Assembly: GCF_024207115.1 (NCBI RefSeq)
Contig: NZ_CP100128.1
Location: forward strand, 1,984,001 to 2,048,000
Direction of reading: 5' to 3'
DNA: 64,000 bases
From: Chromobacterium sp. IIBBL 290-4
Lineage (GTDB): Bacteria; Pseudomonadota; Gammaproteobacteria; Burkholderiales; Chromobacteriaceae
Position 1 is the stretch's first letter. Each line of letters starts with the position of its first letter. The notes beneath the pieces were generated by a model, which made no database searches, was not told where the DNA came from, and saw only the letters and a list, made by a program, of their open reading frames with translations. Below, in pieces: positions 13,023-51,459 of the stretch. Both the position numbers and the translations under genes were made by a program.

Positions 13023-13709
<687 letters not shown>

Positions 13710-13718
13710 CGGATAAAT

Positions 13719-16182: not shown

Positions 16183-16205
16183 GCTTCCGGTCGACGGAAA
16201 AAAAC

Positions 16206-16243: not shown

Positions 16244-16255
16244 GCGCGCCGCGGC

Positions 16256-16786
16256 TTAGGCGGCCTGGGCGCGTCTGGCGGCCATGTGTTCTCCGGCCTG
16301 TCTGAGTTCTTCCAGGCTCAGCGTGCTGGACGCGGTGGGAAACAGCCAGGCCTCCTCGGTGGCGGCGTGTTCGCGGTATTGGCGGGCGAATTCCTGCAAT
16401 TCATTCTTGCTGATCTGCTTGATGCGGCCATCGCGCAGCGCGGTCAGATCGTCGCGGATGGCGTTCCAGCAGGAGTGCAGATAGCCGTGCTCGGCGGAGA
16501 GCTGCTCCAGCCTGGGCACTGCGGTGGGCACGCGCTGTTCGATCAGCGGGAACAGCTCTTCTTCCTCGTCGGTATGATGGGCCGGTCCGGCGACGTCGAA
16601 ATAGCGCACGATGTCGTCAATGGTGTTGCGCGCGGCGTCGTCGACGCCATGCTCATCGATATAGGGCGGCAGTTTGTCCAATAAGTCGCAGAAGCGGCGA
16701 ATTTTGTCGTGGCAGGCCAGCAGCATTTCCAGCGGCTGTTCGAAACTGGGGGCGGTGGGGCCGCCCAAGGTGTCGAGCGTGAGCAT
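16256..16786 (-). CDS. Hemerythrin-like HHE domain protein
   Basis: This 176-residue helical protein carries the histidine/glutamate pattern of a di-iron hemerythrin domain: LACHDKIRRFCDLLDKLP, PAHHTDEEEELFPLIEQ, SAEHGYLHSCW and REHAATEEAWLFP. Such proteins bind oxygen or nitric oxide or help repair iron centres; which applies here is not shown. The ATG at 16786 is preferred because AGGAGA lies eight bases upstream. An in-frame ATG at 16819 lacks a ribosome site. It is convergent with tal. Confidence 0.87.
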   Translation of the reverse strand: MLTLDTLGGPTAPSFEQPLEMLLACHDKIRRFCDLLDKLPPYIDEHGVDDAARNTIDDIVRYFDVAGPAHHTDEEEELFPLIEQRVPTAVPRLEQLSAEHGYLHSCWNAIRDDLTALRDGRIKQISKNELQEFARQYREHAATEEAWLFPTASSTLSLEELRQAGEHMAARRAQAA

Positions 16787-36636: not shown

Positions 36637-37479
36637 TCAGTCGGCCATTTTCTCGCCCATGCGCACCGGGCTGGCGGCCTGCCATTGCGGGTTGAACTTG
36701 AGCGGGCCGGCCGGGTACAGCAGCACCACGGTGGAGCCGAGTAGGAAGCGGCCCATCTCTTCGCCCTTGGCCAGGCGGATGTCCTGGCTGCGGTAATCCC
36801 ATTTTTCCACCGCCGGTCGGCGCGGCGGATTGACCACGCCGTGCCAGACGGTGGCCATGCTGCCGACGATGGTGGCGCCGACCAGCACCATCACGAAGGG
36901 CTGGCCTTGCTCATCCTCGAATACGCACACCACCCGCTCGTTGCGGGCGAACAACCGGTCCACGCCGCGCGCGGTGGCGGGATTCACCGAATACAGATCG
37001 CCCGGCACATAGGTCATTTCCAGCAGCTTGCCGGCGCAGGGCATGTGGATGCGGTGGTAGTCGCGCGGGCTGAGGTAGATGGTGGCGAAATGGCCGTCGG
37101 CGAAGCGCGCCGCCAATTCGGCGTCGCCGGCCAACAGCGCGGTGGCGCTGTAATCGCGGCCCTTGGCCTGGAAGATGCGGCCGCTGTCAATGGCGCCTAG
37201 CTGGCTGACCTCGCCGTCCACCGGGCAGACCAGTCGGGCGTCGGCCAAGGGGCGCACGCCCGGTTTCAGCGCGCGGGTGAAGAAGTCGTTGAAGGTGGCG
37301 TAGGCCGCCGGGTCGCTATTGGCGGCCTCGTTCATGTCCACCCGGTAGCGGGCGATGAAGCGGCGGATGGCCGCCGTGGTGATGCCGCCGCCTTGCCAAG
37401 AGGCGAGGCAACCCGCCAGCCGGGTCAGCGCCAGCTTGGGCATCACATGTTGGGACAGCACGAACAGGCGCTCGGACAC
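36637..37479 (-). CDS. psd: Phosphatidylserine decarboxylase proenzyme
   Basis: This 280-residue inner-membrane enzyme makes phosphatidylethanolamine. The self-cleavage site LGST is present near the C-terminus (GRFLLGSTVVLLYPAG), where the serine becomes the pyruvoyl group; LSPRDYHRIHMPCAG carries the conserved histidines. The start is GTG with AGGAA six bases upstream, and TATAAT on the minus strand at 37512-37517 could be its -10 box. It is the last housekeeping gene before the phenazine locus, whose leftmost gene ends 257 bases away. Confidence 0.95.
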   Translation of the reverse strand: MSERLFVLSQHVMPKLALTRLAGCLASWQGGGITTAAIRRFIARYRVDMNEAANSDPAAYATFNDFFTRALKPGVRPLADARLVCPVDGEVSQLGAIDSGRIFQAKGRDYSATALLAGDAELAARFADGHFATIYLSPRDYHRIHMPCAGKLLEMTYVPGDLYSVNPATARGVDRLFARNERVVCVFEDEQGQPFVMVLVGATIVGSMATVWHGVVNPPRRPAVEKWDYRSQDIRLAKGEEMGRFLLGSTVVLLYPAGPLKFNPQWQAASPVRMGEKMAD

Positions 37480-37736
37480 GGGCGTTTCCTGGAAAATGAA
37501 GTGAACCTCGCATTATATCCCAGCTAGGCGGGGATGGCGCGCGGCGCGCCGCTGTCGTGGCGAAGCTGGATTTGCAGCGTTTGAGAATGGGCCATCGCCA
37601 GGAGGGAGGATAAGGGGCGTTTACGGCGCAGCGGGTGGCGAATGGCCGAGATCGGCGCTCGAAGTTTTGCGCCGCGCGGCTATCGGCATCGCGCAGGCGC
37701 GAACCGAATAGCCGCCGGCTGAGCGGCTTATGTCGC

Positions 37737-38558
37737 TTAGGGCGCCAGGATGGCCGAGGCGAACCAGCCGGCCGGAATCGGCGCGACTTGCCGGCCATGG
37801 GCGATGGCGGGCGAGGTCGAGGCGAATGTGGCGGCGCGCCAGCCGTCTCGTCCCAGCCAGTCGGCGATGTCATCGCGCGCGGACAGCCAGCGCGCGCCTT
37901 GCGACTCGACGCGCGCCCGCGCCTCCCGGCCCTCTTCCTGCAGCATGCGGGTGTCGAGGTGCTCGAGCAGCAGCGAGCTGCCGGCCGCGGACAGCGCGGT
38001 GATCCGGTTGATCAAGGCATCGCCGTCTTGTTCGCTTAAATACATGAGGAGCCCTTCGACCAGCCAGATCGTCGGCTGGGCGGGGTCGTAGCCTGCGGCG
38101 AGCAGGGTTTGCTCCCAATCGGTCGTCAGATCGGCGGCCAGGGGGCGCCACTCGCACTGCAGCGGCAGGCGGGAGCGGTTAACGAGTTCGCGCTTGAAGG
38201 CGATCATCTCGTCGAGATCCAGCTCGAACCAGCGAGTGCCCTCCGGGCAGGCCAGCCGCAGGGCGCGGCCGTCCATGCCGGCAGCCAGGGTGACGATCTG
38301 GCGGATGCCGCCTTCCAGCGCCGCCTGGATGGCATCGTCGAAAAAGCGGGTGCGCACCACGAAGTACTGGGGAAACTTGGCCAGGCGCGCCACATTGCTG
38401 ACGTGGGCGTGGGTTTCGGTGCCCTCCAGCTGGTCTATCAGCGACGCGGCCAGCGGGTCGAGAAACAGCGCGTCCGGGCGCTGGCTTTCCGCATGGCGTT
38501 GCCAGGCGATGAACAGGGCGGTTTGGCCGACGCCGGCCGGAATATCGAGAGTCGTCAC
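37737..38558 (-). CDS. SAM-dependent methyltransferase (leucine carboxyl methyltransferase-like), phenazine locus
   Basis: This 273-residue protein belongs to the LCM/TIGR00027-like class: PDALFLDPLAASLI, FVVRTRFFDDAIQAAL, the SAM-site VTLAAGMDGRALRL, WFELDLDEMIAFKREL and WLVEGLLMYLSEQDGD. It starts at GTG with AAGGAAG upstream and is the last gene of the phz operon, 28 bases after phzG. Members methylate oxygen or carboxyl groups on small molecules, so a phenazine carboxyl or hydroxyl is a fair guess. It is not related to the phzM type known from Pseudomonas. Activity unproven. Confidence 0.82.
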   Translation of the reverse strand: MTTLDIPAGVGQTALFIAWQRHAESQRPDALFLDPLAASLIDQLEGTETHAHVSNVARLAKFPQYFVVRTRFFDDAIQAALEGGIRQIVTLAAGMDGRALRLACPEGTRWFELDLDEMIAFKRELVNRSRLPLQCEWRPLAADLTTDWEQTLLAAGYDPAQPTIWLVEGLLMYLSEQDGDALINRITALSAAGSSLLLEHLDTRMLQEEGREARARVESQGARWLSARDDIADWLGRDGWRAATFASTSPAIAHGRQVAPIPAGWFASAILAP

Positions 38559-38586
38559 AAGCTGGCTTCCTTGTCTGAAAGTGGGG

Positions 38587-39225
38587 TCAGGGTTGCAGGT
38601 GGGAGGTTTTCCAGATGGACCCGTCGAGATCGTATTTCAGCCGATGATGCAGCCGATCCGGACTGGGCGACCAGAATTCCATTTCTTGCGGTTCAATGCG
38701 GTACGCGACGAAGCGGCTGGGCCTGGGCAAGGCCTTGCCGGTGGCGAACAAGGCGTCGGCCTCGCCGAGCAGGGCGGCGCGGTCGAGCAGTACATCGCTT
38801 TGGCTGGACGCGGTCGACATGGCGTGCATGGGCACCGGGCGGGCGAACCAAAGCGTGTCGGCCTCTTGCTCGTCCAGCAGGACGGCCCGGCCGGAGATCA
38901 TGATTTGCTGGCCGGTCTCGCGCCAATACAGAATGCCGGAGACCCAGCCGGTTTCCGATATCTCCCGTCCCTTGCGGCTGGAGGCGTGGGTGCAGAATAC
39001 CAGGCCGCGCTCGTCTATCGAGTTGAAGGCGATGATGCGGGTGGATGTCCGCCCGTCTTTGCCGGCGGTGGCCAGCGCCATCGCCTTGGGTTCCCGCACC
39101 GGCAGCGTTTGCGCATGGTCCAGCCAGCGGCGCATCAGCGTCATCGGGTTGGGCGGGGGCGCGTCATATTCGGGGAACGGGATATCAACCCGTCCGGTCA
39201 GCGTCTCAAATCGGCTGGTCTTCAT
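38587..39225 (-). CDS. phzG: Phenazine oxidase PhzG (FMN-dependent, PdxH-like)
   Basis: This 212-residue protein has the pyridoxamine-phosphate oxidase fold: PKAMALATAGKDGRTSTRII, GLVFCTHASSRKGREI, GILYWRETGQQIMISGRAV and a C-terminal W..SHLQP. Inside a phz operon this is PhzG, which oxidises the unstable hexahydrophenazine products to aromatic phenazine carboxylates with FMN. It lies 25 bases after phzF. A PdxH role is unlikely given the operon. Confidence 0.9.
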   Translation of the reverse strand: MKTSRFETLTGRVDIPFPEYDAPPPNPMTLMRRWLDHAQTLPVREPKAMALATAGKDGRTSTRIIAFNSIDERGLVFCTHASSRKGREISETGWVSGILYWRETGQQIMISGRAVLLDEQEADTLWFARPVPMHAMSTASSQSDVLLDRAALLGEADALFATGKALPRPSRFVAYRIEPQEMEFWSPSPDRLHHRLKYDLDGSIWKTSHLQP

Positions 39226-39250
39226 CAGTGATGCTCCGATGCGCGATGGC

Positions 39251-40420
39251 TTAGAGGGTCAGCCGGCCATGGGCGGCGACGACGCCATGCCCGCTGACCT
39301 CGACCGATTGGATGTCTCGCGCATGGCCCTTCACCAGCGCGAACAGATGCGAAGGCCGCTGGATTTCCACGCCCTGCAGGATGTGCAGCGGCTGCCCCCA
39401 GTCGATCAGGCCGTGCTGCGCCAGATGGATGGCGATCGGCCCGGCGGCCGAGCCGGTCGCCGCGTCCTCGGTGACGCCATAGGCGGGGGAGAACATGCGG
39501 CAGCGCCAATGATCGCCGGCCGGCGCCAGGCAAATCGCCGACATGTCCTCGAAATCGGCGAGCGCGCGGTGGTCAGGCCGGACATTGGACAGGGCTTCGA
39601 CATCCTTGCACACCACCAGCACATGGCGCGGGCCGTTGCGGTAGGCGGTGACGGGCAGGACGGAAGAGGCCAGGCCCAACGCCTCCAGCAGGCGATCCGC
39701 ATGCTGATAGGGCTCCCAGCTTGGAATGGGCTGGCGCATGGTGACGAAGGCGCGGCCGGCCTGCTCGGGCTCGGCATCGAAGCGGAATAGCCCCATGCCG
39801 GTTTCGAACACAAACGCGGGTTGATCCCTCAAGTGCCTGAGCGCGACGGCGGTGCCCAGCAGCGGATGGCCGGCGAACGGCAGCTCGTTGACCGGCGTGA
39901 AGATGCGGACATGGCAATCCCCGCCTTGTTTGGGCGGCATCACGAAGGTGCATTCGGACAGATTCATTTCGCGGGCGATGCTTTGCATGCGCTCCGCCGG
40001 CAGCGGCTGATCCAGCAGGAAGACGGCGACGGGATTGCCTTCCAGCGGGGTGCGGGTAAAGGCATCCACCACGATATAGTCTATGCCCGCGCCGCCATGC
40101 GGTTTCAGTCCGGCGAGCCACGGCAGGGCGCGGTCCCGCTCGGCGGTCGCCGCCACGGCGAATCGCGCGCGCAGCGAAGGCGGCTGGCCTATCAGTTGCT
40201 GCGCGCGGTTGGGCGGCAGCTGCTCATTGGCCGGGCGCTCGCCATCCCACAGCATGAGCGCGCCCCAGCGCTTGGTTTCTGGATCGAAGATCCAATGCTT
40301 GCGCGCCAGGCCGGGCACGCGAGTCCACGCGTCCACGCCTTCTTCGCGCAGTTGGTTTTGCAAGGACGCTAGCGTTTGCGGAGGGGTGTCCAGGTCCCAC
40401 CACACGATGTCGATGTTCAT
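39251..40420 (-). CDS. phzF: PhzF isomerase with an extra N-terminal domain
   Basis: This 389-residue protein is about 110 residues longer than usual PhzF. Residues 113-389 are PhzF: DYIVVDAFTRTPLEGNPVAV, the catalytic E156 in NLSECTFVMP, VNELPFAGHPLLGTA and GVTEDAATGSAAGP. It isomerises trans-2,3-dihydro-3-hydroxyanthranilate to the aminoketone that dimerises. Residues 1-100 (WWDLDTPPQTLASLQNQL, DAWTRVPGLARKHWIFD, RWGALMLWDGE) form a separate small domain whose pattern recalls YdhR/antibiotic-monooxygenase-type ferredoxin folds. Frame and codon use are continuous, so this is a real fusion. The role of the extra domain is unknown. Confidence 0.9.
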   Translation of the reverse strand: MNIDIVWWDLDTPPQTLASLQNQLREEGVDAWTRVPGLARKHWIFDPETKRWGALMLWDGERPANEQLPPNRAQQLIGQPPSLRARFAVAATAERDRALPWLAGLKPHGGAGIDYIVVDAFTRTPLEGNPVAVFLLDQPLPAERMQSIAREMNLSECTFVMPPKQGGDCHVRIFTPVNELPFAGHPLLGTAVALRHLRDQPAFVFETGMGLFRFDAEPEQAGRAFVTMRQPIPSWEPYQHADRLLEALGLASSVLPVTAYRNGPRHVLVVCKDVEALSNVRPDHRALADFEDMSAICLAPAGDHWRCRMFSPAYGVTEDAATGSAAGPIAIHLAQHGLIDWGQPLHILQGVEIQRPSHLFALVKGHARDIQSVEVSGHGVVAAHGRLTL

Positions 40421-40432
40421 GCAACCCTTATC

Positions 40433-42358
40433 CTAATGAGAGGCTATCGCCTGAGGCGGAACGGTCTGGCCGAGGCGGCCTGCGCCGCGCAGGGCGTGAG
40501 CCAGCGCTTGGGCGAGAATCCGCGGGCCATCGACGGTCAGCACCGATTCGGCGTGAAACTGCATCGAGCTGAACGACTCGCCGCGCAGCGCATGCACTTC
40601 GCCGCTGGCGGGGTCGCGGCAGACGCTGACCGGGCCGACGTCTTCGATAGCCAGCGCGTCGCGGGCGGAATAGGCCGCGAAGGCGTTGTAGAAGCCCACC
40701 CGCTCCCGCTGGCCGAAAAGGTCGATCTCGACCTGGATGCCTTGATTGGGCGTGGCGCGCTGGCGCAGGGGAATGTCCAAGGTCGCGCTCAGCACTTGAT
40801 GGCTGAGACAAACGGCGACGAAGGGTTTCTTGTCCGCCAGCAAGCGGCGTATCCAGGCATGCAGCTGGCCGATGCGCGGCTCGTCGAGGGCGCGGGGATC
40901 GCCGGGGCCGGGGCCCATCACCACGACGTCGTAGGCGTCGATATCGGCGGGCTCATGGGCTTGGCGGATGTCCGTTTCCAGGCCCAGGGCGCGCAATTGG
41001 TGGGCGATCATCGCGGTAAAGTGGTCTTCGGCGTCGATGATGAGCGTGCGCAGGCCGGCCAGCTCGCGCGACGCGCCGTTGTCGGCATCGGCGGCGCGGA
41101 ACCAGAAGTCGGCGATATGGGCGTTGCGTTTGGCCAGGTCCTCCCGGACCAGCGGGTGCTCTCCAAACGGTTGCGCGCCGGCGTGCGGATCGAAGGCGTT
41201 GGACAAGGTTGCCACTTTCGAATGGGTTTCCATGACTTCCGAACGGGGAACGGAATGGCGGACCAGCGTGGCGCCGACGCCGATGCGGACGCGGCCCTGA
41301 GGGGAAACTTCCGCGGTGCGGATCAGAATCGACGAATCCAGCATGCGGCCGCCTTGCTCGTCCTGGCCGATCAAGGCGGCGATGCCGCTGTAGTAGCCGC
41401 GGCCGACCGGTTCGTGCCTGGCGATCACTCGCGCGGCGCTCTCGATCGGGCTGCCGGTCACGGTGGGGGCGAACAAGGTTTCCCGCAGCAGATGCCGGAC
41501 ATCGGCATCGGTTTTTCCCGAAATGAAGTATTCGGTATGGGCAAGTCTGGCCATTTCGCGCAAATGCGGTCCGGTGACGCGCACGCCGCTGTGGCAGAGG
41601 CGGGTCATCATTTTGAGCTCTTCATCCAGCACCATGTACAGCTCGTCGGACTCCTTGCGGTCTTCGAGAAAGGCCCGGATGCCGGCCAGCGTCGGTCCGC
41701 TCTGGGGGTAACGATAGGTGCCGCTGATCGGATTCATCGTCGCCACGCCGTCATGCAAGGTCAAATGGCGCTCCGGCGTCGCGCCGATGAAGGTGCGCTC
41801 CGGCGTGTGGGCCAGGAAGATCCAGTGCGCGCCGGATTCCTGGCGCAACAAACGCTTGAATACCGAGAAGGCCTGCTCGAGCGAATAGTGATCGAGCTGC
41901 CCTTCCAGCGTGCGCTTGATCACGAAATTGGAGCCCGCACCATGGCCGATTTCTTCCGCCAGGACTTGCTCCACCATGCGAGCGTAAGCCTCGTCGTCGA
42001 TGTCGAAGCGGCGCTCGCTCAAGCGGGTGGGCGTGTCCGGCAGCCGCGACAGGACTTGCTGGACCGGCAGCTGCTCATGCTGGCGGCAGCGGATGGCGAG
42101 CAGCGGCGCGCCATCGTCCCGGCATGCGAATCCGCGTTCCAGAATTTGCCGGTAAGGCAGCAGCAGCAGCCAATCCCATGACTGCCCCCCGTTTCGCGCC
42201 GCGTCCCGCAGCGGCAGATCCTGCAATGAGGCGGGATAGCACAGCTCTCCGATGATGACGTCGACGTGCGCCTGGCGCGCGGCGCCCCCCGCCCTGCAGA
42301 GCAAGGCGAAGGAGGAGGCCTGACCGCTGAGCGCTTGGTCCAGCAGGTCGACGCTCAT
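40433..42358 (-). CDS. phzE: 2-amino-2-desoxyisochorismate synthase PhzE
   Basis: This 641-residue enzyme uses chorismate and glutamine to make ADIC, the first committed step to phenazines. Residues 1-400 are the anthranilate-synthase-like domain (NPISGTYRYPQSG, DELYMVLDEELKMM, HTEYFISG, GSPIESAARVI). Residues 435-630 are the glutamine amidotransferase, with the nucleophile in FVAVCLSHQVLS and the histidine-glutamate pair in SMQFHAESVLT. ATG 42358 overlaps the phzD stop as ATGA; a further 60-residue upstream extension is not conserved. Confidence 0.95.
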   Translation of the reverse strand: MSVDLLDQALSGQASSFALLCRAGGAARQAHVDVIIGELCYPASLQDLPLRDAARNGGQSWDWLLLLPYRQILERGFACRDDGAPLLAIRCRQHEQLPVQQVLSRLPDTPTRLSERRFDIDDEAYARMVEQVLAEEIGHGAGSNFVIKRTLEGQLDHYSLEQAFSVFKRLLRQESGAHWIFLAHTPERTFIGATPERHLTLHDGVATMNPISGTYRYPQSGPTLAGIRAFLEDRKESDELYMVLDEELKMMTRLCHSGVRVTGPHLREMARLAHTEYFISGKTDADVRHLLRETLFAPTVTGSPIESAARVIARHEPVGRGYYSGIAALIGQDEQGGRMLDSSILIRTAEVSPQGRVRIGVGATLVRHSVPRSEVMETHSKVATLSNAFDPHAGAQPFGEHPLVREDLAKRNAHIADFWFRAADADNGASRELAGLRTLIIDAEDHFTAMIAHQLRALGLETDIRQAHEPADIDAYDVVVMGPGPGDPRALDEPRIGQLHAWIRRLLADKKPFVAVCLSHQVLSATLDIPLRQRATPNQGIQVEIDLFGQRERVGFYNAFAAYSARDALAIEDVGPVSVCRDPASGEVHALRGESFSSMQFHAESVLTVDGPRILAQALAHALRGAGRLGQTVPPQAIASH

Positions 42359-42978
42359 GCCAGCGCCTCCTCGGCGACGACGATCTTGCCGCAGCATTGC
42401 GCGATGTATTCCAGCATCTGGAGATGCTGGCGTTCGGAGAAGTCCGCCACGCCGTCGGCTACCAGAAACGCTTGAATATCGTTGGAATACGCTTCGACCG
42501 CGGTCGCCTGTATGCCGATATGGGCGTATACGCCGCACAGGATCAATTGGTCTTTGCCGGCTGCGCGCATCTTGTTGAGCAATTCGGTGCGATGGAAGGC
42601 GCTATAGCGCCATTTGGCGAACAGCCAATCGCCCTCGTCGGGCCGGACGGCATCGGCGATGTCCCGGTCGGCCGGCGTGGTTTCCATGCCGGGGCCCCAG
42701 AAGTCGAGCAAGAGGCCGCGCTCCTCCCGGGTCATCCGGCCGGTATGGGCGGTGTAGGCGACGGGAATGCCCGCCGCGCGGCAGCGTCCCAGCAAGCCGG
42801 CGACCCTGGCGAGCAGCGTGTCGCGCAGCGCGGCCGGCAAGGGCGACAGGAAATAGTTCTGCATGTCATGAATCAGCAGCAGCGCCCGCGAGGGCTCCAG
42901 CCGCCATGACACCAGGTTTTCAGGGAGATCGGATGCCGCGGGCAAAGCGTAGTGTTGGATTTGGGGAATACCGGCCAT
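42355..42978 (-). CDS. phzD: Isochorismatase-type hydrolase PhzD
   Basis: This 207-residue enzyme hydrolyses the vinyl ether of ADIC to trans-2,3-dihydro-3-hydroxyanthranilate. D38 in LLLIHDMQNYFLSPLP is catalytic, and CGVYAHIGIQATAVEAY is the phenazine-type signature, in which the cysteine of related hydrolases is replaced by glycine, as in other PhzD proteins. AAGGAGG lies six bases before the ATG. It overlaps phzE by four bases and follows phzB by 25. Confidence 0.95.
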   Translation of the reverse strand: MAGIPQIQHYALPAASDLPENLVSWRLEPSRALLLIHDMQNYFLSPLPAALRDTLLARVAGLLGRCRAAGIPVAYTAHTGRMTREERGLLLDFWGPGMETTPADRDIADAVRPDEGDWLFAKWRYSAFHRTELLNKMRAAGKDQLILCGVYAHIGIQATAVEAYSNDIQAFLVADGVADFSERQHLQMLEYIAQCCGKIVVAEEALA

Positions 42979-43003
42979 GGTTCGCCTCCTTGCTGATTCC
43001 GAA

Positions 43004-43495
43004 TTAAGCTGGCAGACCCGCGCGACGAATGGCGGGCAGCGGGATGCCGAGCGAGCGGAACTGCTCGCATGGGTTCATGAATTCGCGCTGCTCCTTGATC
43101 AGGCCATTCTCAAAGCGGAAGGAGTGGAGGAAGTGGTTGCGATAGATGCCCGGCGGATAGTCGGGGAAGAGGATCGCGCCTTCGCCCCGGCACTCGACCC
43201 AGAAGTGATTGGGGTCCTGGGTGTCGAAGATTTCGATGTCGGTCCATTTCCAATCGGGGAAGCATTGCAGCGACCAGACCGCATGTTCGGCCAGACGGTC
43301 GCGTCCGCGGATGGCGATAGGCTGGCCGGTATCGGTGGTCCACAGGCCGCCGACGCCGTCTTCGGTGAACAGCAAGTGCCGCTTCAATCGGGCTTCGCCC
43401 AGCGTGTGCATGTATTGCTCGACGATTTGCCGGTTGTGCCGGCGGATAGCGTCCTGATCGTTGGCCGCATCCAGGGTGTTTTCATGAACAGACAT
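43004..43495 (-). CDS. phzB: PhzA/PhzB-family condensation protein, single copy
   Basis: This 163-residue NTF2-fold protein helps two aminoketone molecules from PhzF condense to the tricyclic scaffold. The family blocks HNRQIVEQYMHTLGEARLKRH, DGVGGLWTTDTGQPI and FPDWKWTDIEIFDTQDPNHFWVE (given in parts) and FMNPCEQFRSLGIP are clear. Pseudomonas has tandem phzA and phzB; here only one copy exists, as in several other genera, and by its complete catalytic-type sequence I call it PhzB. A GGGAG ribosome site precedes the ATG. Confidence 0.93.
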   Translation of the reverse strand: MSVHENTLDAANDQDAIRRHNRQIVEQYMHTLGEARLKRHLLFTEDGVGGLWTTDTGQPIAIRGRDRLAEHAVWSLQCFPDWKWTDIEIFDTQDPNHFWVECRGEGAILFPDYPPGIYRNHFLHSFRFENGLIKEQREFMNPCEQFRSLGIPLPAIRRAGLPA

Positions 43496-43533
43496 ATGCG
43501 CTCCCAGGGTCCATGGCGGACCGGTTCGTGGAT

Positions 43534-44802
43534 TTAGACCAGATAGCTGATTTCTCTCGGATCCAGGCCAACCAAGGAACGGCCGTAGACCAGTTGCGGA
43601 ATGCCCATGCCGAAGCCGGCGTGGCGGCTGCCGACATGAATGTCGCGCCAGATCCGCTGCAGCGGATTGCTCTCCATGAAGGCCGCGCTGCCGTAAGCGG
43701 TGAGGATGCGTTCGATGGCGTCCCGGCAGAGTTTGGTGGCGCGGGTGGATTCCATGCGGAAGCTGGAGCGCGTCAACTCATCCGGCAGCGCGCCGGACAA
43801 GGCATGGTGTTCGACGGTGTCGACGATCTGGCGGGCGTGCAGCCGCGCGCCTTGTATCATCATCGCGGCCTCGGCCATATCGGTCTGGAAGGCCGGCGAT
43901 TGGGCCTGGCTGCGGAAGGTGGAGGAGGTGACGCGGCGGTCGTGCGATTGCTCGCGCACCATATTCAATGCGGTTTCGACCGCGCCCAGCTGCGGCCCTA
44001 GCAGCCCGAGAGACAGCAGGCCGGAAAAGCTGACGCTGTAAAGCGGGTGCCGCGCGGCGATGTGGGGATTTTTCCCGGTGACGATGGGGGCGTAAGGCGT
44101 GATGCGATGATTGGGGATGAACAATTCCTTGGCGACGACGGTGTTGCTGCCGGTGCCGCGCATGCCGGTGATATGCCAGGTGTCGCGGATTTCCACGTCC
44201 TCGGCGCGCATCAGGATCAGGTTGGGCGTTTCATCGTCCGGCGCGATGCCTTTGGGAATGAGCGCGGCGATCCAGCCGGCGTGGAGGCAGCCGGAGGCAT
44301 AGCCCCATTCGCCGGAAACGATGACGCCGCCTTCGACGCGTTCCACGCTGGCGCGGGATGGCGAAATGATCAGCGCGATGCCGATGTCCGGATCCTCGCC
44401 CCAAACCTCGTCCTGCGTGGCTACCGGGTAGTGTCCCACCATGTAATTGCCCATATTGAGCACGCTGACCACCCATGAGGCGGAACAACATCCTCTGCCC
44501 AACTCCACGCAGGCATCGAACAACACGCTGGGTTTGGCCTCGAACCCGCCATAACGCTTGGGCGTGAAGAGTCGGAACATGCCGGCCCCCACCACGGCGT
44601 CGACCGAGCGTTCGGTCAAGCGGCGCTGCTGATCGGATGTCTGCGCTTCTTCGGACAGCGTGGAGCGGATGGCTGCGGCCTGGGCAATCGCGTAGCTGTG
44701 ATTGTCCGCATCCGCAGCAGAATGGTCTTCATGCGCCGCCTGCTTTTCCAATGAGGAGGCGTGGCGCTCAGCGGTGTGCCGGGTCGTTTCCGTGGTATTC
44801 AT
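43534..44802 (-). CDS. Acyl-CoA-dehydrogenase-fold flavin monooxygenase, first gene of the phz operon
   Basis: This 422-residue protein has the acyl-CoA dehydrogenase fold of two-component flavin hydroxylases (HpaB-/HsaA-/DszC-like): VVGAGMFRLFTPKRYGG, CSASWVVSVLNMGNYMV, VSGEWGYASGCLHAGW, RGTGSNTVVAKELFIP, and a C-terminal AYGSAAFMESNPLQRIWRD (shown in part). Such enzymes hydroxylate aromatic rings or heteroatoms using reduced flavin from a partner reductase. It is the operon's first gene, so probably a phenazine hydroxylase or N-oxygenase. It is unlike PhzS. The reductase partner is not in this operon. Confidence 0.82.
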   Translation of the reverse strand: MNTTETTRHTAERHASSLEKQAAHEDHSAADADNHSYAIAQAAAIRSTLSEEAQTSDQQRRLTERSVDAVVGAGMFRLFTPKRYGGFEAKPSVLFDACVELGRGCCSASWVVSVLNMGNYMVGHYPVATQDEVWGEDPDIGIALIISPSRASVERVEGGVIVSGEWGYASGCLHAGWIAALIPKGIAPDDETPNLILMRAEDVEIRDTWHITGMRGTGSNTVVAKELFIPNHRITPYAPIVTGKNPHIAARHPLYSVSFSGLLSLGLLGPQLGAVETALNMVREQSHDRRVTSSTFRSQAQSPAFQTDMAEAAMMIQGARLHARQIVDTVEHHALSGALPDELTRSSFRMESTRATKLCRDAIERILTAYGSAAFMESNPLQRIWRDIHVGSRHAGFGMGIPQLVYGRSLVGLDPREISYLV

Positions 44803-45643
44803 GATTTCTCCGATGGTTTACGTTTGTCGTTGAAGCCTGAACGAAGGGTGATTAAGACTTTTCATGCCGGTCGGCTTAATTCATCACGGTCTTAATATGG
44901 TTATGCCCACTGATGCCTGCTCTTATAGGGAAATGCATCTAACAGCCTTTATGCGAATGCATCTGCTTTTAGCGGGTTTTGTGAAATATTATTTTAGTTA
45001 ATGAGGGTTGTATTGAGGTTTTATGGCAATTCCTCGGTTAACGCTTTATTTGATTTTTGGCTCAAGGTTTATTGTTCTTTTGGTGACTGTTTGTCTGCTT
45101 TTGTTTTCCCACGCAATAGCTGTGTTTTTCGTTTAGCTAGGATTGGATTGGCATTTTTAACCATGTTTTCTTTGTTTGTTGAAACTTTATTATGCTTATT
45201 TTATTTCCATATGATTAATAACCTGAGCACTTATTCAGCCAGGGTTTAGTTTCTCAATTAATGACTTCAACATAAAATTTCCGAGGATGCTATTGATTTT
45301 GTTTCATAGCGTCAACATTAAATTGGAGTGAAGAATTTATTTAAATTTGAAATCAGACTATTCATTAAAATCTTTATCTATTTGTGATTATTTCAATTAA
45401 TAAAATACGTAGTAGTTATTTTTATTTGGAACTCGATTGCGTCGATAGGATAAGGTTTCGGCTTTTTTGAGACAGAAAGCGCAGCGCAAAACTAAAAAGC
45501 AGGCTCCGCAGGCGGGAGAAATGTCAAAGTTTTTTTACTGTATTGACATTGGCATTTCATATTGAAAAGAATGGCGGGTCTATAAAAGCTGCGCATGCAT
45601 CTGTGCTGCGTTTTGATTAAAACAAATCGCCAGTTAGGAACCG
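44803..45643. promoter_or_regulatory. AT-rich divergent control region of the phenazine locus
   Basis: There are 841 bases between the two divergent phz transcription units, much richer in AT than the genes. AATGCATCT occurs at 44932-44940 and 44956-44964, a 24-bp period. TTGACA (45543-45548) and TATAAA (45581-45586) lie near the reductase start but are not spaced as one promoter. I found no luxI/luxR gene and no convincing lux-type box. An 82-codon open frame at 45001-45249 lacks a ribosome site. Confidence 0.55.
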
Positions 45644-46687
45644 ATGATGGAATTGCCAACACTGCAGCGTGAAATCCGTTTGATAGAGCGGCTCAAAGGC
45701 CTGCCCTCCCCAGAACATTTTGAATTGGCGCAAGCCGCCATGCCGGTTGCGAACCCGGGCGAGGTTCTGGTTCGCAATCATTACTTTTTAGTGTCGGCCT
45801 CGCTGCGCGCCATGATCAGCGAAGGCGCCGAGGATGTGCCGGGCGTGCCTTTCCCCGCCTTGAACGCGGGAGACGTGCTGCGGGCGGAAGCCCTGGGCGA
45901 AGTGCTGGCGGCGCCGGCGGGATCGAATCTGTCCCCGGGAGACTGGGTGACGCACTTCATGGGATGGCGGGATTACGCCGCCGTTCCCCTGGCGCAATGC
46001 GAGCGCGTCGGCGCGCCGATGCCGGAGCCGGTAGGCCGCCTCGGCTATCTGGGACATGGCTGGACCGCTTATGCCGCCCTGACCCGCGGCGTGCAGATCC
46101 GTCCTGGCGATACGGTGTTTGTGTCGAGCGCGGCCGGCGCCATCGGTTCGATGGCGGGGCAGATCGCTCGCAAGCTGGGCGCTAAGCGCGTCATCGGCAG
46201 CACCAGCACCCAGGAAAAGGGCAGGCGTTTGATCAGCGAGCTCGGTTACGACGCGGCGGTGACGCGCTGCGAGGGAAGCGCTCTGGCCGACCAATTGCTG
46301 GATGCTTCGCAGGGCGGCATCGATGTGTTCATCGACATGGTGGGAGGCGAAACCTTGCAGGCGTCGCTGGCGGCCGCGCGGGAGGGCGCGCGCTTCCTGA
46401 GCATCGGCACCCTGTCAGGCCAGCTGGCGGCTACCGGAACCGGAAGGGTGGCGCCGGTGGAGCTGGATGGGCTCCAGTTCTTGCTGAAGCGCATCACCAT
46501 GCGGGGCTATAGCGCCGATGACAATCCGGAAGCGCGCGAAGAATGGCTGCAGCGTCTGCCGGAGTGGTTGAGCGCGGGGGACATCACCTTCCCCTTCACC
46601 ATGATAGACGGACTGGAACGCGCGACAGAAGCGTTGCGGGATACGGCAAAGGGCCGTTATCTCGGCATGGTTATCGTCAAGTTGTAA
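45644..46687 (+). CDS. MDR-family NADPH oxidoreductase in the phenazine locus
   Basis: This 347-residue protein is a zinc-free medium-chain reductase of the leukotriene-B4 dehydrogenase/curcumin reductase type: GDWVTHFMGWRDYAAV, GHGWTAYAALTRGVQIRPG, the cofactor loop SSAAGAIGSMAGQIARKLGA and GIDVFIDMVGGETLQ. Such enzymes reduce activated double bonds with NADPH. It is 61 bases upstream of phzC and divergent from the main phz operon, so a tailoring or redox role in the pathway is likely but not shown. GTTAGGAACC precedes tandem ATG codons (45644 or 45647). Confidence 0.85.
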   Translation: MMELPTLQREIRLIERLKGLPSPEHFELAQAAMPVANPGEVLVRNHYFLVSASLRAMISEGAEDVPGVPFPALNAGDVLRAEALGEVLAAPAGSNLSPGDWVTHFMGWRDYAAVPLAQCERVGAPMPEPVGRLGYLGHGWTAYAALTRGVQIRPGDTVFVSSAAGAIGSMAGQIARKLGAKRVIGSTSTQEKGRRLISELGYDAAVTRCEGSALADQLLDASQGGIDVFIDMVGGETLQASLAAAREGARFLSIGTLSGQLAATGTGRVAPVELDGLQFLLKRITMRGYSADDNPEAREEWLQRLPEWLSAGDITFPFTMIDGLERATEALRDTAKGRYLGMVIVKL

Positions 46688-46748
46688 GCGGAAAACGATG
46701 GCGCGCCCGCCTCGTCAGCCGAGGGGGCGCGCAACCTGAAAGGCAATC

Positions 46749-48173
46749 ATGGAACATACTCTTTCGTCTGCGCGCAATGCTCAGCTGTGGTCTCCGGACT
46801 CGTGGAAAAGCAAGCCGGCGTTGCAGCAATCGACCTATCGCGACGCTGCCGAACTGGAGCGGGCCTTGGCCGAGCTGGGCGCCCTGCCGCCGCTGGTCAC
46901 CTCTTGGGAGGTGCTGGCGCTGAAGCGCAAATTGGCGGACGCGGAGGCGGGGCGCTGCTTTCTGCTGCAAGGGGGGGATTGCGCGGAAAGCTTTTCAGAC
47001 TGCACGCCTTCCGTGATTTCCAATCGGCTGAAAGTGCTGTTGCAGATGAGCCTGGTGCTGGTGCACGGCTTGAAACTGCCGGTGGTGCGGGTAGGCCGTT
47101 TCGCGGGGCAATATGCGAAGCCGCGCTCGGCGGAGATGGAGACGCGGGATGGCGTGACCCTGCCTTGCTATCGAGGCGACATCATCAACGGCAGCGCGTT
47201 CACCGCCAGGGAGCGCGAGCCGGATCCGCGCCGGATGATAGACGCGCACTCCAAATCCGCGCTGACGATGAATTTCGTGCGGGCGCTGATCGACGGCGGT
47301 TTCGCCGATTTGCATCATCCGGAGTATTGGGATCTGGAGTGGGTGTCGCATGCGCCTTTGCGCGACGAGTACTGGAAAATGGCGCAATCGGTCGGCGAGT
47401 CCATCCGTTTCATGGAAGCGCTGGGCGGCCAATCGTTTGGCTGCTACCCGAAAGTGGATTTCTACACCTCGCATGAAATGCTGCTGCTGCCTTACGAGTC
47501 CACGATGACTCGCCAAGTGCCGCAGCATGAGGGCTGGTTCAATCTATCGACGCATTTTCCGTGGATAGGCATGCGTACAGCCCAGCTTGACGGCGCGCAC
47601 GTGGAGTATTGCGCCGGCATCAGCAATCCCATCGGCTTGAAGGTTGGCCCCAGCGTGAAGCCCGAGCAATTGCTGCGCGTCATCGAGGCCTTGGATCGCG
47701 AAAACGAGCCGGGACGATTGACCATCATCACGCGCATGGGCGCCGAGCAAGTCGAATCCGCTTTGCCGCCCTTGTTGCGAGCGGTCAAGTCGGAGGGGCG
47801 GCGCGTGTTGTGGTGCTGCGACCCCATGCACGGCAACAGCGAAACGACGGCTGGCGGCGTGAAGACGCGCCGCTTCGAAAACATCCGCAGCGAACTGGAA
47901 GCGGCATTCACCATCCATGCCGCTTGCGGCACGCGTCTGGGGGGCGTTCACCTGGAGCTGACCGGGGAGAACGTGACCGAATGCCTGGGCGGCGCCCGCA
48001 ATCTCCGCGAGGCGGATCTAGCCCAGGCCTACAAGTCCACGGTGGATCCCAGATTGAATTACGAGCAATCGCTTGAGATCGCGATGCAGATCGTGCGTCA
48101 GCACAGCTCAACCGTGCAACAAAGCAAGCTTGACGCCGCGGAGCCCCGCGCAGCCATGCTGGAGGCTTCCTGA
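46749..48173 (+). CDS. phzC: Class II DAHP synthase PhzC
   Basis: This 474-residue plant-type DAHP synthase condenses PEP and erythrose-4-phosphate, pushing carbon into the shikimate pathway for chorismate. Key blocks are CFLLQGGDCAESF with metal ligand C78, VVRVGRFAGQYAKPRS, DPHGN-type WCCDPMHGNSETTAGG and GGVHLELTGENVTECLGG. Phenazine clusters often carry this feedback-free class as phzC. Unlike in Pseudomonas it lies on the opposite strand from phzBDEFG, paired with an MDR reductase. Confidence 0.93.
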   Translation: MEHTLSSARNAQLWSPDSWKSKPALQQSTYRDAAELERALAELGALPPLVTSWEVLALKRKLADAEAGRCFLLQGGDCAESFSDCTPSVISNRLKVLLQMSLVLVHGLKLPVVRVGRFAGQYAKPRSAEMETRDGVTLPCYRGDIINGSAFTAREREPDPRRMIDAHSKSALTMNFVRALIDGGFADLHHPEYWDLEWVSHAPLRDEYWKMAQSVGESIRFMEALGGQSFGCYPKVDFYTSHEMLLLPYESTMTRQVPQHEGWFNLSTHFPWIGMRTAQLDGAHVEYCAGISNPIGLKVGPSVKPEQLLRVIEALDRENEPGRLTIITRMGAEQVESALPPLLRAVKSEGRRVLWCCDPMHGNSETTAGGVKTRRFENIRSELEAAFTIHAACGTRLGGVHLELTGENVTECLGGARNLREADLAQAYKSTVDPRLNYEQSLEIAMQIVRQHSSTVQQSKLDAAEPRAAMLEAS

Positions 48174-48237
48174 TCGGGGCGCAGGCCGCTGGCTTATACA
48201 CACCTAATGAAAACTTGATCCCACTTAGGCTGGTTCT

Positions 48238-49437
48238 ATGACATTTTATACTTTTACTTCTGAGTCCGTCTCCGAAGGCCATCCGGACAAAGTCGCCGAC
48301 CAGATTTCCGACGCGATTCTGGACGCTATCCTGCGCGAAGACAAGCACGCTCGCGTGGCTGCTGAAACGCTGGTGAATACCGGTCTGGTCGTGCTGGCGG
48401 GCGAGATCACCACCACCGCCAACATCGATTACATCAAGATCGCGCGCGAAACCATCAAGCGCATCGGTTACGACGATTCCGAGCTGGGCTTCGATTACCG
48501 CGGCTGCGCGGTGATGGCCTGCTACGACAAGCAATCGCCTGACATCGCTCAGGGCGTGAACGAAGGCGAGGGCTTGGACCTGAACCAGGGCGCCGGCGAC
48601 CAGGGCCTGATGTTCGGCTACGCCTGCGACGAAACGCCGACGCTGATGCCGTTCCCGATCTACTACGCGCACCGTCTGGTGCAGCGCCAGGCTGAATTGC
48701 GCAAGGACGGCCGCCTGCCGTGGCTGCGTCCGGACGCCAAGAGCCAGATCACCTGCGTGTACGACGCCGCCACCGGCCTGCCCAAGCGCATCGACACCGT
48801 GGTGCTGTCCACTCAGCACAGCCCGGACATCGACCACAAGACGCTGACCGAGGCGGTGATCGAAGACATCATCAAGCCGGTGCTGCCGCCGGAGATGATC
48901 ACCGAAGAAACCAAGTTCCTGATCAACCCGACCGGCCGTTTCGTCATCGGCGGCCCGATGGGCGATTGCGGCCTGACCGGCCGCAAGATCATCGTCGACA
49001 CCTATGGCGGCGCGGCGCCGCACGGCGGCGGCGCTTTCTCGGGCAAGGATCCGTCCAAGGTGGACCGTTCGGCGGCTTACGCCGGCCGCTACGTGGCGAA
49101 GAACATCGTCGCCGCCGGCCTGGCGCGCCAGTGCCAGATCCAGGTTTCCTACGCCATCGGCGTGGCCGAGCCGACCTCGATCGCCGTGGATACCTTCGGC
49201 ACCAACAATATTCCGAACGAAAAGATCGTGGAACTGGTGAAGAAGCACTTCGACCTGCGTCCGAAGGGCATCATCCAGATGCTGGACCTGTTGCGTCCGA
49301 TCTACGGCAAGACCGCGGCTTACGGCCACTTCGGCCGCGAAGAGCCTGAATTCACTTGGGAACGCACCGACAAGGTGGCCGCATTGCGCGCAGATGCCGG
49401 CTTATCCCGAGAAGCCGTGGAACTAGCCGTAGTCTGA
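48238..49437 (+). CDS. metK: S-adenosylmethionine synthase
   Basis: This 399-residue enzyme makes SAM from methionine and [24 protein letters not shown] (seen in parts) starts the protein, the ATP-site [17 protein letters not shown] and the P-loop-like [19 protein letters not shown] follow. It begins the housekeeping block to the right of the phenazine locus. The 64 bases before it contain a weak hairpin (CCTAA/TTAGG) and a poor ribosome site; I see no known SAM riboswitch there. Confidence 0.97.
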
Positions 49438-49541
49438 ACGGCGCAAACAAGGCGGCTGCCCGCGGGCGGCGTGGATAGTTTCTTATCCGCTCCCGCTCCG
49501 CGAGGTCCGCCATGTTTTGAGGCGAATGCTGCGCCCCCATT

Positions 49542-49565
49542 CCGGCCCGGTCATGTCCGGGCCGG
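49542..49565. terminator. GC-rich hairpin between metK and the convergent outer-membrane gene
   Basis: CCGGCCCGG, loop TCATGT, CCGGGCCGG forms a 9-bp stem about 105 bases after metK. No T-run follows on either strand, so its role as a terminator is uncertain. Confidence 0.4.
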
Positions 49566-49619
49566 CCATTGCGGGCGCGGCTGTTCGGACCCTCATCCGC
49601 AGTCGGCAGGGCGCTGGAT

Positions 49620-50609
49620 TCAGAAATGGTAGCCCAGACCCACGGAGACTTCCCGGATGTGCGCGTCGAAATAGGCGAGGTCTGAATTGGAGCGGCCGTA
49701 ATTGCCGCTGAGAAAGGCGGACCAGGCCTTGGCGCCGAACAGGTTTTTCCGGGTCAAGCCCAGGCTGAGCAAGGCTTCGCGGCTATCGGCCTTCTGTCCG
49801 TTGAACAAGGGATTGCCGGCCTGATAACGGGTGCGGGCCGCGACCACGGAGGTGTTGGCATCCCAATCGGCGCCTTTGTAGGCATAGGCCAGCTGTACGC
49901 CATAGCGCGTGGTGCTCATGGCCTTGCCGTTCAGATCGCTGCGCGCGTAGATCAGGCCGGGGCTCAGCGTATGCGCGCCTTGTCCATCCAGTTTCCAGGC
50001 ATAGCCCAGCTGCGCGCCGTAATTGTTGCCGTCGCGTTTCAGCAGGGCTTGATTGGCAAGGGACAAACCTTGTGCCTGGCCGCTTTGTTCATTATCCAGC
50101 GTTTGTTTGGCATAGCTGACGCTGCTGCTGAAGGGCGTGTTCATGATATTGGACCAGCCCAGGGTCAGCCCCGCGCTTTTCAGCTTGCCGTCCTGGCGGG
50201 CGATGTTAAGCGCATAGGGATCCAGCCAGACCTCGGTTTGTCCATATGTCAGCGCCGCCGACACTGCGCCTGCTTGCGGCAATTGCTGGCGGACGCCCAG
50301 TTGCAGGCCGCCGCCGGCGGCGAAGGTGCTGGTATTGGAGGGCGAAAAGAACAGCTGAGTGCCGGTGCCGTGGAAGCCATAGTTCCATTCGCCATCGATC
50401 AGGGGGGCTGCGCCGGATTGCGAGGCCGGCGATTGCGCCAGGCTGCCGGCAATGGGGTGGCCATCGTTCGGCGCCTTGAGGAAATTGCTGGCCAGCTGAT
50501 AGTGGCTGACGCCTAATTGAAAAGCGCCGGAAAAACCATCTTGCTCATTCTCTGCCGCGGCTGCCAGCAAAGGTATGCTCAGTAATATCAATTCGGCATA
50601 ATGTTTCAT
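49620..50609 (-). CDS. DUF2860-like outer-membrane beta-barrel protein
   Basis: This 329-residue protein has a signal peptide (about 19 residues, ending AAA) and then amphipathic alternating strands throughout, ending VSVGLGYHF, the C-terminal phenylalanine signal of outer-membrane barrels. The pattern (SGAFQLGVSHYQLASN, YGAQLGYAWKLDG, TRYGVQLAYAYKG) fits DUF2860, a family of unknown function. It is convergent with metK and divergent from a two-component system, which may control it. Confidence 0.78.
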   Translation of the reverse strand: MKHYAELILLSIPLLAAAAENEQDGFSGAFQLGVSHYQLASNFLKAPNDGHPIAGSLAQSPASQSGAAPLIDGEWNYGFHGTGTQLFFSPSNTSTFAAGGGLQLGVRQQLPQAGAVSAALTYGQTEVWLDPYALNIARQDGKLKSAGLTLGWSNIMNTPFSSSVSYAKQTLDNEQSGQAQGLSLANQALLKRDGNNYGAQLGYAWKLDGQGAHTLSPGLIYARSDLNGKAMSTTRYGVQLAYAYKGADWDANTSVVAARTRYQAGNPLFNGQKADSREALLSLGLTRKNLFGAKAWSAFLSGNYGRSNSDLAYFDAHIREVSVGLGYHF

Positions 50610-50802
50610 CGAAAATTCCTTCGGGTTGAATCAGAAGAGCGGGCTGCTGGGCGGATGCTTCATCCGCTTGGCTTGGGGCGAGTCGGGCCTGAGCTTGTCA
50701 TGCTGAGGCCTTGCATGCATGGGTGACTCCCCCGTACGCTTGGCGCCAGTATGAGCATGTCAACCTTTTGCTAAGCCAAAGATTGTTGTGGCGAGAACGA
50801 AA

Positions 50803-51459
50803 ATGCATTTATTGATCATCGAGGACGACTTGGACTTGGGCCGGGCTTTGCAGGCTGCGTTGAAAGCTGAAGCGGTGACGACCGAATGGGTGCGCAAGCT
50901 GGCGGATGCGGACGCCTTGTTCGAGGCGGACCGTTTCGATTGCGTATTGCTGGATCTGAGCCTGCCGGACGGCAGCGGTTTGGCCTTGCTGCGCGCCTGG
51001 CGGGCAAGGCAAATCACGGTGCCGGTGATCATGATCACCGCCAGCGCCGATTTGAGCGACAAACTGGCGGGTCTGGATGACGGCGCCGATGATTATCTGT
51101 GCAAGCCGTTCGCGGTGTCGGAAATGGTGTCGCGAGTGCGGGCGGTGTGCCGCCGCAGCGCGCGCCAGGCCAGCGAAATATGGAGCCTGGGCGCGCTGAG
51201 CCTCAAGCCTAGCGCCCATCTGGCCTGGCTGGACGGCTTGGCGCTGGATCTGTCGCCGCGCGAATTCCGCTTGCTGGTGGAGCTGGCGCGCGATCCCAGC
51301 CGCATCGTGTCCAAAACCCTGTTGGGGCAGCGTCTGGAACCGCTGGGCGATATCGTGGACGGCGCGACGATAGAGGTGCACTTGTCCAATCTGCGCCGCA
51401 AGATCGGCGCCGAACGCATCCGCACTGTGCGCGGCGTGGGCTATCAATATGTGGTTTAA
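50803..51459 (+). CDS. OmpR/QseB-class response regulator
   Basis: This 218-residue regulator has a receiver domain with D51 in CVLLDLSLPDGSG and a C-terminal winged helix (LSPREFRLLVELARDPSRIV ... EVHLSNLRRKIGAERI). The ATG at 50803 begins the conserved MHLLIIEDD; a GTG at 50788 would add five residues. It overlaps the kinase gene by 11 bases. It belongs with TctD/QseB/PmrA-type regulators; the target could be the divergent outer-membrane gene. Confidence 0.9.
   Translation: MHLLIIEDDLDLGRALQAALKAEAVTTEWVRKLADADALFEADRFDCVLLDLSLPDGSGLALLRAWRARQITVPVIMITASADLSDKLAGLDDGADDYLCKPFAVSEMVSRVRAVCRRSARQASEIWSLGALSLKPSAHLAWLDGLALDLSPREFRLLVELARDPSRIVSKTLLGQRLEPLGDIVDGATIEVHLSNLRRKIGAERIRTVRGVGYQYVV

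Follow-up and report, generated by a model that had tools for sequence, protein, structure and literature searches.

Which phenazine is made by a locus whose core genes lie on two strands and whose tailoring enzymes had been left unassigned? The question is raised by Chromobacterium sp. IIBBL 290-4, of which a 64,000-nucleotide stretch (the window) was analyzed here. By gene content, kinship and insertion this DNA carries a horizontally acquired, Burkholderia-type phenazine locus, and its chemistry, which is predicted throughout, would probably end at dimethyl 4,9-dihydroxyphenazine-1,6-dicarboxylate, so that an "unassigned" locus is turned into one predicted product. Among the papers listed by a search limited to open-access literature, none described a Chromobacterium phenazine.

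Gene content, layout and insertion of the locus

ORF and profile searches recovered a complete phz core as open frames, distributed over two divergent units within a block of ten genes, a gene content far beyond chance. The features are as follows (L002 is the locus of Rhodanobacteraceae bacterium ZG21-1).

37563..49613, no strand: inferred inserted block, between psd (36637-37479) and a DUF2860 gene (49620-50609)
37737..38558, minus: LCM-type SAM-dependent methyltransferase (MT), predicted phenazine carboxyl O-methyltransferase and lomo11 counterpart (PF04072, 176.6 bits; TIGR00027, 220 bits, cut-off 93.55)
38587..39225, minus: phzG, FMN-dependent oxidase (NCBIfam NF038138 phena_PhzG, 298 bits, cut-off 270)
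39251..40420, minus: phzF with N-terminal NosA-like domain, ORF of 389 aa (PF02567, 221.5 bits, residues 118-385)
40130..40420, minus: NosA-like dimeric alpha/beta-barrel-type domain (residues 1-97 of the PhzF ORF)
40433..42358, minus: phzE, ADIC synthase (chorismate-binding PF00425, 136 bits; GATase PF00117, 83 bits)
42355..42978, minus: phzD, isochorismatase family (PF00857, 123.5 bits; 66% to L002)
43004..43495, minus: phzB (PF03284 PHZA_PHZB, 285 bits)
43534..44802, minus: flavin monooxygenase (FMO), two-component, group D (acyl-CoA-dehydrogenase fold), predicted phenazine C4/C9 hydroxylase and lomo9 counterpart (profile and structure-homologue matches)
44803..45643, no strand: divergent AT-rich intergenic region with one sigma-70-like site toward the MDR gene (45543-45572)
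45644..46687, plus: MDR reductase, curcumin-reductase/quinone-oxidoreductase type (PF16884 and PF00107, below NCBIfam cut-offs)
46749..48173, plus: phzC, class II DAHP synthase (TIGR01358, 667 bits, cut-off 614.7)
48238..49437, plus: metK, SAM synthetase, second copy in the genome (TIGR01034, 605.6 bits)

All frames are open, with overlaps and spacings of operon type. The longest phzE frame reaches 42538, but the gene probably starts at the ATG at 42358, since this start overlaps the phzD stop codon. A profile search of the genome returned phzB as the sole PhzA/B match. The first-pass annotation had claimed the complete core (phzB, phzD, phzE, phzF, phzG and phzC), a single phzA/B copy and phzC on the opposite strand behind an MDR reductase, and all of this agrees with the present searches. 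It had also named a flavin monooxygenase and an LCM-type methyltransferase as first and last genes of the operon; both are present, the former being of the two-component type with an acyl-CoA-dehydrogenase fold. The extent given there, 37737..48173, covers genes correctly placed and has to be prolonged to about 49437, because metK belongs to the plus-strand unit.

The operons phzABCDEFG of Pseudomonas serve the same core chemistry with two PhzA/B genes and with phzC inside the operon; we know of no such FMO/MT pair and no NosA-like gene in them. The claimed departure from the Pseudomonas order was borne out, that order being given in PMC4549113.

Neighboring luxI and luxR genes had been reported as absent, and no LuxR or LuxI domain was detected by Pfam in the 50 ORFs scanned, a subset of those in the window; nor did Pfam reveal a regulator gene among the ORFs of the block. 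Matches to a LuxR-type box pattern were not enriched (54 sites, 55 expected), and the promoter scan of 37400-50000 gave 3 sites against 2.9 expected, so the sigma-70-like sites are not significant. Terminator-like sites occurred at or below chance, and the window contained no tRNA and no Rfam family above its gathering score.

Comparison with three empty sites in congeners (L176-L178) identifies the locus as an insertion of ~12 kb. In these sites the homology to psd stops at 37531-37562, that to the DUF2860 gene begins at 49614-49620, and the two genes are separated by 129-149 bp; no repeat pair is evident at the block borders. By profile search, PhzA/B is absent from 18 congeners, and at E 1e-3 it occurs in 4 of 399 genomes of the wider order and 2 of 369 of the class, counts that include the own genome and in which the others reach at most 36.3 bits. 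The extra metK looks host-derived: over nucleotides 48253-49400 it shares 98.5% identity with the host metK at C1:676895, as against 92.5% with both copies present in congener G006.

Tailoring genes and their relatives

The homology of FMO to the oxygenase subunits HsaA, C2 (from p-hydroxyphenylacetate hydroxylase) and XiaF extends over most of its length, which places it among the two-component group D flavin monooxygenases. The hydroxylase XiaF (5lvu, E 1.4e-55) is among its best solved relatives, and FMO scores below the cut-off of both NCBIfam equivalogs (HsaA, 242.9 of 450 bits; HPAH-C2, 211.8 of 650 bits). Among its relatives, 19 of 23 loci adjoin phz genes at 43.5% identity or more and none of 57 do so below that value, a threshold chosen after inspection of the data; in L005 and L013 FMO is present with no phz gene within 10 kb. 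The closest named relatives belong to Burkholderia (66-70%; B. mayonis 70%, B. reimsis 67%), and in the FMO tree the window copy falls with Burkholderia proteins in a nine-row set with 96% SH-aLRT. A flavin reductase was not found within the locus, and the two PF01613 genes of the genome are both distant and outside the window.

The methyltransferase shows the same kinship, with 72-73% identity to named Burkholderia proteins (B. cepacia 72%, Burkholderia sp. BDU5 73%), 72% to Trinickia, 76% to the best hit and 70% to L002. At 200 bits or more it was found beside FMO alone, in 9 of 18 FMO-containing versus 0 of 37 FMO-lacking clusters (55 complete clusters), the former having mostly been retrieved through their FMO and hence being no random draw. 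The other nine FMO-containing clusters, that of Streptomyces griseoluteus included, lack it, so the presence of FMO does not determine the product. In several clusters, some with FMO and some lacking it (L003, L017 and L018 among them), more remote LCM-type relatives (31-38%) are found close to phz genes, and one fusion protein (P0087) joins an LCM domain to an FMO of this kind. The MDR reductase (69% to L002, 53% to the copy in the S. lomondensis cluster) perhaps reduces the phenazine.

A phenazine-clade FMO and an LCM methyltransferase thus adjoin the core here, as in clusters of Burkholderia and lomofungin type. Phenazine loci of B. lata, B. cepacia and others (Hendry et al., 2021, AEM 87:e02348-20, as cited in PMC9958762) supply the closest named relatives of both enzymes in a comparison at the level of proteins; for B. 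reimsis BE51, PMC6256556 gives a predicted phenazine cluster. Dimethyl 4,9-dihydroxyphenazine-1,6-dicarboxylate is reported from Burkholderia cepacia 5.5B, and it carries the groups that FMO and MT should add. The window differs from these loci in host, insertion site and the host-like extra metK, and on a plasmid of B. ubonensis the phz cluster is of another kind, lacking both this FMO and this MT.

The lomofungin cluster of S. lomondensis (L010, strain JCM 4866; the strain of PMC4549113 is S015) contains counterparts of FMO (49%), MT (58%), the MDR reductase (53%), phzBDEFG (55-74%) and metK (59%). Its phzC lies inside the operon and is only 38% identical to that of the separate plus-strand unit described here, which reaches 75% to L002. 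Its NosA-like gene (55%) is separate and stands between phzE and phzF, whereas in the window it is fused to PhzF; no such gene appears in the published lomofungin gene list (PMC4549113). That list holds further genes that have no counterpart in the block (lomo10, the flavin reductase lomo8, an aldehyde dehydrogenase and others), and neither a lomo8-type flavin reductase nor an aldehyde dehydrogenase is among the ten block genes. According to that paper, deletion of lomo10 leads to accumulation of 1-carbomethoxy-6-formyl-4,9-dihydroxyphenazine, and since this intermediate bears both the 4,9-hydroxyls and a methyl ester, these groups are independent of lomo10; two P450 genes were suggested there for the remaining lomofungin hydroxyls. 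The comparison points to lomo9-type FMOs as the probable enzymes of 4,9-hydroxylation in dicarboxylate phenazines, which the lomofungin paper, in the part consulted, leaves open.

In L002 the same genes recur as FMO-phzB-D-E-(NosA-like+phzF)-G-MT plus phzC and the MDR gene, at 62-75% identity (NosA-like 46%). Relative to the main unit, that of phzC and MDR runs convergently there and divergently in the window, and no metK occurs in the L002 stretch examined. The two-strand layout noted earlier is thus real in the window and not conserved, and the view of an orphan with unassigned tailoring enzymes is not supported: judged by these relatives, the locus is a further case of a known cluster type.

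The NosA-like domain fused to PhzF

The most unusual element of the locus is an extra N-terminal domain of PhzF (~100 residues), which, like metK, goes unmentioned in the first-pass annotation and for which a role can be predicted from its match to NosA (4za1, E 1e-16). Its fold agrees with that of NosA, HapK fitting equally well to within 1 Z. The catalytic residues of NosA, an enzyme of nosiheptide biosynthesis, are Lys49 and Glu101 (PMC4525488, PDB 4za1); the window copy keeps the Lys and has Ala90 at the position of Glu101, PhzF takes the place of the C-terminal loop of NosA, and there is no thiopeptide context. When residues 1-112 of the PhzF ORF served as query, a protein search gave zero matches and did not return even the own protein.

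Of 46 one-phzB clusters, 39 have a NosA-like sequence, against 0 of 9 two-phzA/B clusters (Fisher 2e-6), the nine being essentially one lineage; the seven exceptions are L126, L145, L146, L167, L170, L171 and L175. The count left out duplicates (L130, L137, L159, L111), the superseded L089, L001, short pieces (L092-L124), nine incomplete clusters (L021, L125, L127, L133, L136, L139, L140, L154 and L162, of which four have the NosA-like sequence) and loci without a phzB hit, L007 included although it has one; it tolerated an absent phzD hit (e.g., L152) and took in both members of the near kin L171/L175 and L163/L173. In L138 the NosA-like gene lies away from phzE and phzF.

Tentatively, the NosA-like protein may be an overlooked core component of a major phenazine branch, in place of a second PhzA/B gene, that would take over the enamine/imine tricycle once PhzF and PhzB have acted and bring about a proton shift or a cofactor-free oxidation, so that both carboxyls survive. 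Were the tricycle steered to the dicarboxylate in this way, this would be relevant to the split between bacteria that make phenazine-1-carboxylate and those that make the dicarboxylate. A strict requirement for dicarboxylate phenazines is ruled out by clusters without the sequence in Xenorhabdus (L170) and Pantoea agglomerans (L171, L175), the latter of griseoluteic-acid type. Replacement of the second PhzA/B gene is weakened by the phzE tree, in which copy number changes twice and the NosA-like sequence four times; it offers one independent pair on supported branches, within which the NosA-like sequence did not differ. This tree has several long branches, and L091, L145 and L146 dropped out of it.

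Predicted pathway and alternative products

The order of the core phenazine steps is established knowledge. In the proposed pathway, the DAHP synthase PhzC would feed chorismate, from which PhzE and PhzD would form DHHA; PhzF would isomerize DHHA and PhzB pair two molecules. The unstable enamine/imine product would be handled by the NosA-like domain, to which the fusion with PhzF, here and in L002, would pass it directly, and oxidation by PhzG would give phenazine-1,6-dicarboxylate. FMO, partnered by a flavin reductase encoded at another site of the genome, would then hydroxylate the two positions para to the carboxyls, C4 and C9, and the LCM methyltransferase would esterify the carboxyls with SAM from the extra metK. 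Mono-hydroxy, mono-methyl and 5,10-dihydro side forms are possible, and reduction of the phenazine may fall to the MDR enzyme.

The same pathway could stop at another phenazine, one of phencomycin type that is mono-hydroxylated, mono-methylated or in the 5,10-dihydro state, and the MDR reductase, which adjoins phzC both here and in L002, could yield dihydro forms. We consider this rather unlikely: FMO and MT find their nearest named relatives in Burkholderia, a genus reported to yield the symmetric dimethyl ester, and a symmetric substrate would present both halves to the same enzymes. It is more doubtful still that tailoring takes place elsewhere on the molecule, with FMO oxidizing nitrogen or dehydrogenating the ring, or MT making a methoxy group. 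The best solved relatives of FMO are named hydroxylases or XiaF, and MT belongs to the Pfam family of leucine carboxyl methyltransferases (LCM), whose member TcmP makes a methyl ester; on the other side, Pfam calls the FMO domains acyl-CoA dehydrogenase, weaker FMO matches are chemically diverse, and S. griseoluteus (L018), a producer of methoxylated griseolutein, has FMO.

The dimethyl ester would also not be formed if the locus were silent or decayed, leaving no phenazine or phenazine-1-carboxylate alone. Such an outcome, to which the acquired origin, the block free of regulator genes by Pfam, the chance level of LuxR-type boxes and the lost catalytic Glu of the fused domain would lend themselves, seems highly improbable, given that every frame is open with operon-like overlaps and spacings and that FMO and MT keep 66-73% identity to their named Burkholderia relatives.

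Organization and origin of the phenazine locus

The phenazine locus is genuine and complete, was acquired horizontally and belongs to a known kind; it comprises two divergent units:

43534-44802, minus strand: flavin monooxygenase (FMO; group D, two-component), first gene of the minus-strand unit
after the FMO, minus strand: phzB, phzD, phzE, phzF and phzG, in that order (families by profile match)
ending at 37737, minus strand: LCM-type SAM-dependent methyltransferase (MT), last gene of this unit
between the two units: AT-rich gap of 841 bp
from 45644, plus strand: MDR reductase, first gene of the plus-strand unit
between the MDR reductase and metK, plus strand: phzC
ending at 49437, plus strand: metK, last gene of this unit

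The first-pass annotation had proposed a complete phenazine core, an operon opening with a flavin monooxygenase and closing with an LCM-type methyltransferase, and phzC on the opposite strand behind an MDR reductase; gene order and family matches on the ORFs bear out all of these. Within the minus-strand unit phzD and phzE overlap (ATGA at 42358) and 12 to 38 bases separate the remaining genes, pointing to a single transcript from FMO to MT. GC content (2-kb bins, 36-50 kb) is 0.625-0.657, except in the bin holding the divergent gap (0.515).

Among 200 genomes, including its own and 18 congeners, PhzA/B was matched in its own genome only. The distance from psd to the orthologue (68-73%) of the histidine kinase at 51449 is 2.05-2.06 kb in 8 of the 18 congeners, the other 10 having no close orthologue and not being judged, and 13.97 kb in the window. 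At the three empty sites fetched psd adjoins a DUF2860 gene, 129-149 bp downstream, so the ten-gene block 37563-49613 has been inserted. A search of the window for tRNA genes was negative, and the block's ten genes include no transposase or integrase by family profile. The block also contains no regulator; since the regulator-kinase pair nearby (response regulator and histidine kinase, 50788-52855) is present at all three empty sites as well, it belongs to the resident site and offers no evidence of dedicated phz control. A congener of another species without a PhzA/B match (G006) carries two metK genes (contig 1, 364097 and 2575942).

A quick-method FMO tree of 60 rows groups the window protein with Burkholderia proteins in a 9-row set (96% SH-aLRT), nested in a 10-row set with the locus of Rhodanobacteraceae bacterium ZG21-1 (L002; 100%). 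In the MT tree (44 rows, several long branches) the window MT shares a 12-row set (95%) with proteins from Burkholderia, Trinickia and L002. The locus would fit the lineage of Dar et al. (2020; PMC7591250). A B. ubonensis plasmid phz cluster that has a NosA-like sequence and lacks a window-type FMO or MT speaks against a simple equation of Burkholderia with this cluster.

The monooxygenase, the methyltransferase and the predicted product

The FMO matches the two-component aromatic hydroxylases XiaF (5lvu), HsaA and C2, but stays under the cut-offs that NCBIfam sets for HsaA and HPAH. Of 504 relatives found by scanning genomes, the best 80 were used for neighbourhood comparison. At least three phz core genes lay in the fetched stretch of 19 of 23 loci at FMO identities of at least 43.5%, a threshold chosen post hoc with the data already seen, and of 0 of 57 below it. 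The four exceptions comprise L015, cut by a contig end, L022, which shares its contig with the L025 cluster, and L005 and L013, which have no phz gene within 10 kb.

An MT match of at least 200 bits occurs in 9 of 18 complete clusters with the FMO versus 0 of 37 without it; other clusters, both with and without FMO, do have LCM-type relatives close to their phz genes, but more distant ones (31-38%). The metagenome protein P0087 (704 aa) fuses an LCM methyltransferase domain to an FMO, which supports a joint role for the two enzymes.

The lomofungin-type cluster of Streptomyces lomondensis JCM 4866 (MT, FMO, phzB, C, D, E, NosA-like, F, G, metK) agrees in order with the list lomo11 to lomo6 published for a different strain, S015, the NosA-like gene being missing from that list (PMC4549113); lomo9 and lomo11 are taken as the FMO and MT counterparts on family and position. 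A lomo10 deletion mutant accumulates 1-carbomethoxy-6-formyl-4,9-dihydroxyphenazine, so the 4-/9-hydroxyls and the ester come from other genes; the authors count Lomo9 and Lomo11 among the proteins leading to this compound, and propose that two P450 genes account for further hydroxyls. The co-occurrence of FMO relatives with phz genes favours Lomo9 as a hydroxylase. The simplest predicted product of core, FMO and MT is the 4,9-dihydroxy dimethyl ester, which B. cepacia 5.5B produces (PMC9958762).

A NosA-like domain associated with PhzF

The most interesting part of the locus, absent from the first-pass annotation, is a domain of ~100 residues akin to nosiheptide NosA, fused to the N-terminus of PhzF (389 aa ORF). 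NosA-like sequences accompany phzF in all 19 FMO loci having phz genes; 18 of these loci have it as an ORF of its own (103-128 aa), and in L002 it is fused. Two Rhodococcus plasmids (L163, L173) resemble the window in having the match inside the phzF ORF, which on these plasmids adjoins an NAD(P)/FAD oxidoreductase gene. Across 55 complete clusters, the window included, 39 of the 46 that have a single phzB carry the sequence, against 0 of the 9 that have two phzA/B genes, a lineage-bound pattern.

In the dermacozine cluster of Dermacoccus, a 306-nt "hypothetical" gene between phzE and phzG, with a YdhR family protein as nearest relative and oxidoreductase as listed function (PMC7143476), is probably the same small gene. 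By title and abstract, the papers found to mention both "phenazine" and "NosA" did not address NosA-like sequences in phenazine clusters.

NosA acts on an imine derived from a terminal dehydroalanine; Lys49 and Glu101 are essential, E101A abolishing activity and E101D retaining it (PMC4525488). The Lys is invariant in all 19 copies compared. Of 20 copies compared for the Glu, 15 retain it, while L002 has Asp, L008 and L021 have Gln, L020 has Val and the window has Ala; the three plasmid copies have His (L161, L173) or Ala (L172). Because the window carries the substitution that inactivates NosA, the mechanism published for NosA is improbable for its domain, which may nevertheless retain binding or a proton shift, or be failing.

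L172 (E. coli O170:H18 plasmid NZ_CP076707.1, 5135-12420) carries phzB, D, E, NosA-like, F and G with a "phenazine antibiotic biosynthesis protein" and an aldehyde dehydrogenase, and after them an NRPS gene; L161 (Rhizobium leguminosarum plasmid, 7104-16481) combines phz genes and NosA-like with asparagine synthase and an O-methyltransferase. Four Streptomyces plasmids (L160, L165, L166, L168) hold PhzD/PhzE pairs whose fetched surroundings show neither a phzB match nor a PhzF annotation; in three the pair adjoins dihydrodihydroxybenzoate dehydrogenase and polyketide genes, and these are probably not phenazine pathways in any of the four. Elsewhere in the window, 2148-10697 encodes an LPMO/GbpA-type protein, an amidohydrolase, PTS EIIA-HPr-EI and EIIBC, and looks like a region for chitin or N-acetylglucosamine use.
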